From the NCBI GenBank assembly GCA_029248915.1, contig JAQWIK010000102.1, positions 1 through 64,000 on the forward strand: 64,000 nt of DNA, read 5' to 3'. The position numbers and the translations under genes were made by a program. This DNA is from Paracoccaceae bacterium (GTDB lineage Bacteria > Pseudomonadota > Alphaproteobacteria > Rhodobacterales > Rhodobacteraceae). The notes under the pieces were generated by a model. That model searched no databases and was not told the DNA's origin. It saw only the letters and a list, made by a program, of their open reading frames with translations. The first letter of the stretch is position 1; every line of letters starts with the position of its first letter. Positions 24,479 to 26,987 of the stretch are shown piece by piece.

Positions 24479-24583
24479 ATGCGTAGAGTAAAAGATATTG
24501 AGTGTGATAAGTGTGGGCAAGAGTTCAGTGCCAGTGAACATACGCAATGCCCAAAATGTTTAAAGCTCGAAGAAAAGAAATAA
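24479..24583 (+). CDS. 34-residue zinc-ribbon mini-protein
   Basis: Not in the ORF track because of its size. ATG 24479 follows GGAGA with 6-nt spacing, a near-ideal ribosome site, and the frame ends at TAA 24581-24583. The peptide has two CxxC pairs, CDKCGQE and CPKC, spaced by 13 residues, which is a zinc-ribbon layout, with charged ends (MRRVKDIE; LEEKK). It could bind RNA or DNA, or a protein partner, but no function is known. It is divergent from DUF4389 and convergent with DUF1127. The ribosome site and the cysteine spacing are what argue that it is real. Confidence 0.65.
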   Translation: MRRVKDIECDKCGQEFSASEHTQCPKCLKLEEKK

Positions 24584-24630
24584 CAGCTTTTAGTTCCGAA
24601 TTTTTAGTTCAAGGCACAAATAAATTTAAA

Positions 24631-24652
24631 TGGGCCCGTTTAAACAGACCCA
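24631..24652 (-). terminator. Candidate terminator of the DUF1127 gene
   Basis: On the minus strand TGGGTC and GGCCCA form a short GC-rich stem (one mismatch) around TGTTTAAACG, followed by TTTAAATTTATTT. The stem overlaps the last codons and stop of the DUF1127 gene. This is a modest but positionally sensible intrinsic terminator. Confidence 0.5.
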
Positions 24653-24873
24653 GCTAAATTAGGATTGATAAGTACGCTAATCATGTCCCGCGTAGACATT
24701 CTATTTTCGGCGTTGTCTAAATCTGCGCGAACACTGTTAACAATTTCACTTACAAAACTTGCCCTGGATAATCCTATGTCGTTTAGTTGACTGTCTGAAA
24801 GTGTTCTTAAAGCATCATTGGCTGCACTTGCTGTTCGGCTTAGAACCATAGCTTTATATATTTTTTTAAGCAT
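24640..24873 (-). CDS. DUF1127 (YjiS-like) small basic protein
   Basis: A 77-residue protein with the DUF1127 core LRTLSDSQLNDIGLSRASF (about residues 23-41), a small helical domain. Family members in Alphaproteobacteria are short arginine-rich proteins linked to stress, phosphate and RNA-level control; a subset affects mRNA turnover. This one has a longer C-terminal half with an acidic NSVRADLDNAENRMS stretch. Start ATG 24873 has AGGAG 6 nt upstream. Its start codon lies inside a perfect 11-bp inverted repeat (see 24866-24900), suggesting translational control. It is a single gene with its own terminator. Confidence 0.88.
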   Translation of the reverse strand: MLKKIYKAMVLSRTASAANDALRTLSDSQLNDIGLSRASFVSEIVNSVRADLDNAENRMSTRDMISVLINPNLAGSV

Positions 24874-24900
24874 ATCTTTCTCCTGTTTTGATATGCTTAA
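24866..24900 (-). promoter_or_regulatory. mRNA hairpin enclosing the DUF1127 ribosome-binding site
   Basis: On the minus strand UUAAGCAUAUC pairs perfectly with GAUAUGCUUAA (11 of 11 bp) around a 13-nt loop AAAACAGGAGAAA. The loop holds the Shine-Dalgarno (AGGAG) and the right arm contains the AUG, so folding would bury the start codon. Such a start-codon hairpin is a candidate RNA thermometer or regulated switch, though a DNA operator palindrome cannot be excluded. A 13-T run lies just upstream (24913-24925). Confidence 0.6.
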
Positions 24901-25084
24901 GTACTTAGTTTATTTTTTTTTTTTTACTTCAGATAAATCAGTATTGCCGCTATGCGCGAAATACATACCTAACTGACTAAATTCATAGACGCTACTTATA
25001 AGAAATATTAGTATAATTGAAAACAGTCCTGGCGAAGTTGTGATGACCAGATACTTGTCTTTTATAAAGGATAATTAAGAAATT

Positions 25085-25159
25085 TGGTAGCCCGTACGAG
25101 AATCGAACTCGTCTTTCCAGGTTGAAAACCTGGCGTCCTAACCGATAGACGAACGGGCC
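25085..25159 (-). tRNA. tRNA-Glu (anticodon UUC)
   Basis: On the minus strand the cloverleaf is complete: acceptor GGCCCGT/ACGGGCT (with one terminal G-U pair), D arm with GGTTAGGAC, anticodon stem CCAGG/CCTGG around TTTTCAA giving UUC, and T loop GTTCGATTC with stem CGAG. A genomic CCA follows the discriminator A. The set matches bacterial tRNA-Glu. It lies just upstream of recJ on the same strand, the usual Rhodobacterales arrangement. Confidence 0.97.
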
Positions 25160-25244
25160 ACACGTTTTGATCGGGTTTTATGCAATGAACTAAAAAGGCG
25201 CAAGTCAAAAAAAATAAAATTTTAAAAATTTTTGTTCTTAAGTA

Positions 25245-26987
25245 TCAAACATTAGAAAACTGCGCATCTTCTAGGCGCAATTGAACACTTTTTCGACCGC
25301 GCCAGTAGTTTATATCAAGTTTTCCACAAAGGTGTATTGAGTTCCCACCATGGTTCTCAAGAGTGCTTCCAATCTCATTATCAAATGCATTGAAGCAAAT
25401 CGCATCTAACGATCCAGTATCATCGCTAAACTTAAGTCGCAAATGGGAAGTTCCTATTCTTTTTAAAAAAGTAATTTGCATGTTTGCAAAAACAAATGTT
25501 GGTGCTTTAGCGCCTGGGCCATATGGTCCTGCAGAATTTAATAGTTCAACAAGCTCCAATGTTGCTGCGCTGGGTAATAGTAAAGTATCTATATTTACTT
25601 TCGGTGAGCTGTCTATTGTTGTACTCTGTTGCTCTATGATTTCAGTGAGGCGAGACATCGCTTTTTCTAAGTTTTCTTTGGCCAAGCTGAGCCCTACGGC
25701 CATTTTGTGCCCACCCCCAGTAAGTAATAATCCTTCGCCCATCAATTTTTGAATGGCAAAGCCCAGGTCCACCCCAGAAATGGATCTGCCAGAACCCTTT
25801 CCGATTACTCCATCAAATCCAATAACCACAGAGGGTAGATTGGTTGCTTCTTTCAAGCGTGAAGCGACTATTCCTACAACGCCAGGGTGCCAAGAGTCTC
25901 CTGCAGCCCACGCAAGTGAGCCGACAGTTTTTCGATTAATTGCCTGTTCCAGTGCGGCTTCTTTGATTTGATTTTCAAGATTGCGACGTTCAAAATTCAG
26001 TTGATCCAAGCGTTCGGCCATTGCTTTGGCGGCCTCAAGATCTTGTGAAATCAGTAATTGAGCGCCCAAGTCTGGTTTTCCTATTCTTCCTCCGGCGTTT
26101 ATGCGAGGCCCCAATAAAAATCCAAGATGGTAAGCGGAAAGCTCTTGATCAATCTTTATCTGGTCTGACAAAGCTGCAAGCCCTATCCTTTTTCTGCGTG
26201 TTAAAATTTTTAAACCTTGTCTTACGAAAGCTCTATTTACCCCGATTAAGGGAGCAACATCAGCGACAGTAGCAAGTGCAACCAAATCTAACATTTCTAA
26301 TAAATCAGGCGATTTTTCCTCATTTACTCTTTGAAGGCGGCGCGTTTCTACCAAGCATAGAAAAACAACTGCAGCAGCACATAAATGGCTTAAATTGCCT
26401 AATTCATCTTGCCTATTTGGATTCACAACAGCATGACATTTAGGCAATGTTTCACTTGCTAAATGATGATCCAAGACCACTAAATCGGAAGTCTGTATGG
26501 TTTCGATTGCCTCATGGCTTAGAGTTCCACAATCAACACAGATAATCAGTGAGTTCGCGCTTTCTAAAAGTTGTAACGCCTTTATATTAGGCCCAAAACC
26601 TTCTTTAATCCTATCAGGTACATAAAGGGTACATTCAACATTAAAAAATCGAAACCAATCTATCAAAAGTGCTGCTGAGCATCCGCCGTCCACATCATAA
26701 TCTGCAAATATCGCAACTTTTTCACCAGTTTTTGCCGCAATCAAAATTCTCTCTGCAGCTTTCGTCATATCTTTTAATTTAGCCGGTTCTGGCATTAACT
26801 CTCGTAGGGTTGGTTCGAGATATTTTTCTAAAGAGTTTGCACTTACATTTAAGCGGCTTAGAACAGCGCATAGCGCAATGGGTAAACCCGTTTCTTGAAA
26901 AAGTTTTTCCTGATTTCTTTCTTGCTCAGCACTAGGACCAATCCATTGCTTTCCTAAGATAGATTTTTCTATACCAAGATAGCTCAA
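25245..26987 (-). CDS. recJ: Single-stranded-DNA-specific 5'-3' exonuclease RecJ
   Basis: RecJ degrades single-stranded DNA 5' to 3' in recombination and mismatch repair. DHH phosphoesterase motifs: FADYDVDGGCSAALLIDW (about residue 95), VDCGTLS, LDHHLASETLP (motif III with DHH), and GPRINAGGRIG. The DHHA1 segment GVVGIVASRLKE...GSGRSISGVDL and the C-terminal OB fold (HLRLKFSDDTGSLDAICFNAF) are present, so it is complete at 580 residues. It is 6 bp from glpX and in the hom-glpX-recJ run on the minus strand. Confidence 0.97.
   Translation of the reverse strand: MSYLGIEKSILGKQWIGPSAEQERNQEKLFQETGLPIALCAVLSRLNVSANSLEKYLEPTLRELMPEPAKLKDMTKAAERILIAAKTGEKVAIFADYDVDGGCSAALLIDWFRFFNVECTLYVPDRIKEGFGPNIKALQLLESANSLIICVDCGTLSHEAIETIQTSDLVVLDHHLASETLPKCHAVVNPNRQDELGNLSHLCAAAVVFLCLVETRRLQRVNEEKSPDLLEMLDLVALATVADVAPLIGVNRAFVRQGLKILTRRKRIGLAALSDQIKIDQELSAYHLGFLLGPRINAGGRIGKPDLGAQLLISQDLEAAKAMAERLDQLNFERRNLENQIKEAALEQAINRKTVGSLAWAAGDSWHPGVVGIVASRLKEATNLPSVVIGFDGVIGKGSGRSISGVDLGFAIQKLMGEGLLLTGGGHKMAVGLSLAKENLEKAMSRLTEIIEQQSTTIDSSPKVNIDTLLLPSAATLELVELLNSAGPYGPGAKAPTFVFANMQITFLKRIGTSHLRLKFSDDTGSLDAICFNAFDNEIGSTLENHGGNSIHLCGKLDINYWRGRKSVQLRLEDAQFSNV

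Follow-up and report, generated by a model that had tools for sequence, protein, structure and literature searches.

The locus considered here raises the question of why a gene should carry a perfect inverted repeat over its own start codon. The gene belongs to the DUF1127 type, a widespread group of small proteins whose roles (RNA binding, PhoR binding, stress) are debated, and it lies in the analysed stretch of 64,000 nucleotides of a Paracoccaceae bacterium (GCA_029248915.1, contig JAQWIK010000102.1, positions 1 to 64,000), hereafter the window. A sequence-only reading had proposed translational control by a switch that responds to temperature, salt or a protein. The reading that we favor, and to which we give about even chances, is that the hairpin limits DUF1127 initiation and that ribosome traffic on a short upstream open reading frame (uORF) modulates it. 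This conserved uORF had been missed earlier; it is the more likely controller, and it explains a nearby A tract as lysine codons. The features are collected in Table 1.

Table 1. Features of the DUF1127 locus, in window coordinates
Feature	Position	Strand	Basis
Putative uORF MYFAHSGNTDLSEVKKKK, in frame with DUF1127, with its stop codon 9 nt ahead of the 5' arm	24910..24966	-	Peptide and start conserved in relatives
GCATAGCGGC, most conserved part of the leader, H-S-G codons CAT AGC GGC	24946..24955	-	Leader comparison
A13 tract, lysine codons of the putative uORF (four AAA)	24913..24925	-	Sequence
5' arm of hairpin, TTAAGCATATC	24890..24900	-	Inverted repeat and fold; compensatory changes in relatives
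13-nt loop, AAAACAGGAGAAA, with Shine-Dalgarno AGGAG (24884-24880)	24877..24889	-	Inverted repeat and fold
3' arm of hairpin, GATATGCTTAA, with AUG start codon (24873-24871)	24866..24876	-	Inverted repeat and fold
DUF1127-type gene, 77 aa, MLKKIYKAMVLSRTASAANDALRTLSDSQLNDIGLSR...	24640..24873	-	ORF, PF06568 search, relatives
Terminator-like hairpin overlapping the DUF1127 stop codon	24631..24652	-	Terminator search

The perfect 11-bp inverted repeat around the ribosome site was indeed present, and the minus strand between 24866 and 24900 consists of nothing but its two arms and the loop. RNA folding of 24850-24930(-) bore out the described arrangement, with AUG in one arm and AGGAG in the loop: the hairpin was recovered with a minimum free energy of -11.8 kcal/mol (z = -4.63), and none of 200 shuffles was equally stable. 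As background served 234 other ORF starts of the same genome, taken from the window and about 305 kb of further contigs. Pairing of AUG with upstream sequence at a probability >0.9 was predicted for 18 of these 234 starts, the value for DUF1127 being 0.9996. Occlusion of AUG as such is thus not rare, but the perfect 11-bp AUG stem is unique among the sampled starts, where the longest Watson-Crick stem including AUG had at most 8 bp. Opening the AUG was calculated to cost 10.3 kcal/mol, compared with 2.3 +- 1.3 kcal/mol when only the sequence upstream of the Shine-Dalgarno (SD) sequence was shuffled (p = 0.0007). The T tract reported next to the hairpin has the stated length of 13; in the mRNA it is an A13 (24925-24913) and, rather than abutting the stem, ends 12 nt ahead of it. 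An Rfam 15 scan of 24500-25300 gave a tRNA as its sole match at E up to 1, and no known element on the leader.

The match of the 77-aa protein to DUF1127 (PF06568) is marginal, with 23.8 bits in the genome search and 22.8 in hmmscan of the protein against a cut-off of 23.3, and covers residues 21-38 only. Its earlier description as small and basic holds for its size; with a pI of 8.2 and 9 K+R versus 8 D+E it is only mildly basic and nearly charge-balanced, and it carries a long C-terminal extension. Of the 16 genus genomes, 10 (its own included) have relatives of the protein at E 1e-5, and 45 other genomes have none; a profile search retrieved members in eight more genera of Rhodobacteraceae. 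CcsR-like sRNAs of the CcaF1-CcsR or CIN1 type were not found downstream on the same transcript, where the terminator-like hairpin overlaps the stop codon and Rfam 15 gave only tRNA. Directly upstream of the leader, on the same strand, lies a tRNA-Glu(TTC) gene (window 25085-25159), in a position that is conserved in clade A only. Co-transcription of this tRNA with the DUF1127 leader is possible.

The hairpin was followed through the leaders of 29 genes, a comparison that comprises few clades and a draft genome and in which some hairpins were found by looking. The layout with AUG in the stem and SD in the loop was seen in three of the four members of clade A, the clade of the window, and in all five of clade C (10-14 pairs, G-U pairs counted). 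L070, from another genus, has a perfect 9-bp AUG-in-stem hairpin (ACATAACTT/AAGTTATGT). L082, L083 and L085 combine AAGCA-13 nt-UGCUU with an outer helix, as does L074 with a G-U pair. When SD and everything downstream of it were kept fixed and the upstream sequence was shuffled, the cost of opening AUG was exceptional for A1 (p 0.0007), A2 (0.026), clade C (0.0003-0.015), L070 (0.002) and three of the four rows of clade F (0.004-0.014). It was unexceptional for A3/L004, A4/L005 and clades E, G, H, I, J and K, and mixed in clade B. Combined by Fisher's method over 11 clade medians, p amounted to 5e-5 (7e-5 without the window's clade A, 0.012 with the worst value per clade).

Compensatory changes point in the same direction. 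An alignment of 14 hairpins had standard pairs in 85% of cells versus 29-41% in slid registers, a comparison biased toward the structure, which was itself derived from these sequences. Four pairs were changed on both sides, a number reached by none of 500 shuffles, and the covariation score exceeded that of all shuffles; nine sequences, with the short paralogs left out, followed the same trend. Run over the 16 genus genomes, a covariance model had DUF1127 leaders as its nine best matches; next came paralogs, shortened or with a broken frame, whose leaders still have much of the stem. The proposal of translational control via start-codon occlusion is strengthened by the recurrence of this layout with compensatory changes in several lineages. 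The alignment of orthologous leaders did not uphold it throughout: in the close relative L004 an uncompensated C-A mismatch has cost one pair. The AUG hairpin is weak or lacking there, in clades G, H, I, J and K and in most of clade B, pairing being missing in leaders of clades B and H. In L071 and L078 it is the SD that is paired (CCTTGG/CCAAGG), and L008 forms a different stem over it. Judged from these sequences, the hairpin is most likely functional, yet was gained, lost or replaced among lineages. Genus searches for further leaders around G155 and G367 returned no new members and around G377 six; an order-level search gave only weak matches and the plasmid collection nothing useful.

The second element of the leader was found further upstream. 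The block GCATAGCGGC lies about 80 nt upstream of AUG, and its non-coding occurrences in the genus are confined to positions upstream of the window's DUF1127 family. It falls within the putative uORF, which reads ATG TAT TTC GCG CAT AGC GGC AAT ACT GAT TTA TCT GAA GTA AAA AAA AAA AAA TAA. A promoter block, with GCATAGCGGC as -35 element and a TATGAT-like -10, had been considered and was dropped in favor of the uORF, because codons account for the spacing and the open frame has an in-frame start. The predicted peptides of relatives have a pattern around H-S-G-[N/F], namely MYCTHSGNTDLSEVKKK, MKKTHSGNTHLNEVKKNL, MQLLHSGFANLPDEK, MHSGFDLVYDENLGR..., MYLLHGGNSTLVEVEIV, MLHSGNSTMYDAAHAAI, MLHGGNSNLDDVAHAESA, MHNGNTTLYDVKGHNLG and MHFLHCSNSNLDEVS. 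Nearly all rows have an in-frame ATG or TTG at most 12 nt from the H codon, which itself keeps a near-constant distance of 77-83 nt before AUG. In each of two separate sets, amino acids in the uORF frame were more similar than after permutation of the columns (p 0.0058 and 0.0060), on short alignments with frame and anchor picked by eye, and the codon-position entropy was 0.71/0.53/1.00 in the first peptide set. A search with the pattern in 397 genomes found six places, all six upstream of DUF1127 genes.

Other signs argue against a coding role: changes inside clades A and B did not fall on third positions in excess and rather avoided them. There is also no clear SD ahead of the uORF, and the pattern search met the block before two classical DUF1127 genes, L130 and L133, where a dyad is all that is shared. 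All in all, we consider it likely that the uORF is coding. It may lie outside the DUF1127 mRNA. It ends upstream of the hairpin in most members of clades A, B, D, E, G, H and J, reads through the hairpin in C1, C3 and C5, and is fused in frame with DUF1127 in clade F. The HSGN uORF of L082, L083, L085 and L073 runs in frame into DUF1127 with no stop; these genes could encode an N-terminally extended protein, with the hairpin inside the coding region.

How could the two elements act together? With SD exposed in the loop, the 30S subunit could dock, and basal DUF1127 initiation should be low because 11 pairs would have to be opened to reach AUG. Ribosomes that pause or terminate at the end of the uORF would disturb the 5' arm and thereby free AUG. 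In the window species, the uORF stop codon is so placed that a ribosome decoding the final codons would, given its size, reach the edge of the stem with its front. Ribosomes may there be slowed on the run of AAA lysine codons adjoining the hairpin; iterated AAA codons are reported to disturb ribosomes in E. coli (PMC4363877). Where the uORF passes through the stem, as in C1, C3 and C5, translation itself would open it. DUF1127 output would then be a readout of the translation state of the uORF. Repression by the hairpin, its coupling to the uORF and the signal are inferred, and some observations fit less well. A ribosome that terminates on the clade A uORF should do no more than touch the 5' arm at its edge, relatives differ in where the uORF ends with respect to the hairpin, and the AUG hairpin is not universal, as L004 and several clades demonstrate.

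Alternatively, the hairpin alone could be a fixed brake or standby device, with 30S docking on the loop SD and melting the stem at a low, constant DUF1127 output, and with the upstream block unlinked to it. The stem is conserved although the uORF ends differ, and inspection of the leaders revealed no alternative structure of the 5' arm common to the relatives. Pairing of this arm with upstream sequence was encountered in single relatives only (L005, TATGCTTAAGCATA; L009, CCTATA/TATAGG) and was rejected. The near-constant distance between block and AUG suggests, however, that the two elements belong together, and we regard a fixed brake as unlikely.

Binding of a factor in trans would be another way to use a hairpin at this position. 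The MS2 replicase translational operator is a hairpin with AUG in its 3' arm, and the DUF1127 hairpin resembles it in this respect but has SD in the loop. The factor could be DUF1127 itself, another RNA-binding protein or an sRNA on the 5' arm or loop. Besides the placement of the hairpin on AUG, the RNA binding by CcaF1, a DUF1127 protein of R. sphaeroides, would be in line with this idea (PMC10253847); Salmonella YjiS, unlike CcaF1, does not seem to bind RNA (PMC11707872). Possible self-control by DUF1127 is a weaker idea than first stated, given the near balance of charges in the 77-aa protein and its long C-terminal extension. As the loop is moreover only loosely conserved apart from SD, a site for a trans factor appears distinctly improbable.

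There is little chance that the hairpin mainly serves to protect or process the 5' part of the mRNA through RNase E or RNase III, with translation as a side effect. A precedent exists in the R. sphaeroides DUF1127 transcript ccaF1-CcsR, which is processed by RNase E (PMC10253847). Pairing is anchored on AUG in every lineage that has it, however, and a stability element would not need that.

A DNA-level explanation, in which the upstream block is a dyad operator of CTGC-N3-GCAG type and the inverted repeat is due to chance or is itself an operator, is similarly improbable. The CTGCATRGCGGCAATTCY motif also precedes two classical DUF1127 genes, L130 (G348) and L133 (G084), as block CTGCATRGCGGCAATTCC; these two have only a TTGCTGC-ATR-GCGGCAA-like dyad in common, which fits a DNA operator. 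Such dyads occur upstream of several DUF1127 genes, classical ones included, and CTGC-N3-GCAG is found in the leaders of L008, L009, L012 and L014 and CTGC-N4-GCAG in those of L074 and L085. The genus, by contrast, lost the left half of the dyad and kept the H-S-G half, and the hairpin arms change together, which fits RNA pairing over a recognized DNA word. The CTGC-N3-GCAG type is presumably the operator of PhaR. The window's genome, which is 90% complete, yielded no match to PF07879 (PHB_acc_N, PhaR), and a PhaR operator at the DUF1127 leader was rejected as a candidate, though the boxes in the relatives led us to keep it among the rivals.

An RNA thermometer, in which warming would melt the stem and start translation, is scarcely credible. 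In its favor are the AU-rich stem over the start codon and a modelled opening that at 30 °C is about 200 times that at 10 °C. The predicted opening of AUG, however, is 1e-11 at 10 °C, does not reach 1e-7 at temperatures up to 37 °C (2e-8 at 37 °C itself) and is still 2e-5 at 55 °C, which makes simple thermal sensing unlikely. SD is unpaired at every temperature, and relatives vary greatly in how stable the stem is. The suggested temperature-responsive switch is not supported, the stem being too stable in the model.

Control of initiation by hairpin and uORF, the reading that we favor, has parallels among known systems. In erm/cat attenuators a short leader ORF is followed by a hairpin that hides the downstream initiation site. 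The DUF1127 leader shares this arrangement: MYFAHSGNTDLSEVKKKK is an uORF with a conserved peptide, and the hairpin hides AUG (paired >0.99 in the model). In erm/cat, both SD and AUG are hidden and the hairpin opens on drug-dependent stalling at a set codon, whereas here SD is not hidden but lies in the loop and relatives differ in where the uORF stops. RNA thermometers such as ROSE and fourU (PMC3669281) likewise carry their stem in the 5' UTR, at the initiation site; the DUF1127 leader differs from them in its unpaired SD and in a stem that, in the model, does not melt at relevant temperatures.

The precedent is S. meliloti duf1127_1, which is controlled by translation of an uORF and is induced via this uORF by translation inhibitors through transcription attenuation (PMC12218461). 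Both cases involve a DUF1127 gene, a short uORF whose translation controls the gene (proposed here) and a structure of the leader RNA. In S. meliloti, transcription ends prematurely between uORF and gene by way of C-rich codons (PMC12218461), whereas here the hairpin is on the DUF1127 start codon. This position and the short distance of 36 nt between uORF and gene make control of initiation more likely here. The terminator search at the locus gave no terminator-like hairpin between the two. If the favored reading is true, uORF and hairpin would put DUF1127 synthesis directly under ribosome traffic in a lineage of uncultured marine bacteria and would broaden what is a single example in S. meliloti, through a different physical mechanism. 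The relatives with the same leader offer testable predictions. We tentatively suggest that the H-S-G-N/F leader peptide and the start-codon hairpin may constitute a previously undescribed two-part Rhodobacteraceae leader that reports the translation state, in the window species via ribosomes slowed on the AAA run; taken with the S. meliloti case, this would mean that DUF1127 genes in general sense translation.

Several further copies of the locus came to light. The window's own genome holds a second DUF1127 copy of clade B type (L081/L029, G000:C10:4839-4919), which has the same HSG uORF block and is truncated by the contig end. Three species have shortened paralogs of 28 aa (MLRRLHKALMFSNAANAAGNNTSEINFT and similar; L127, L125 and L121, at about locus position 1500 on the locus minus strand), which are devoid of the DUF1127 core and keep the leader, with the AUG hairpin retained to varying degree; of two further copies, L118 is related but altered and L119 has a broken frame. 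Finally, L055 (NYSL01000042.1), titled as a Cryomorphaceae MAG, is a near-identical copy of the window's Rhodobacteraceae locus with 8 differences in 400 nt, and this record is probably a misnamed bin.
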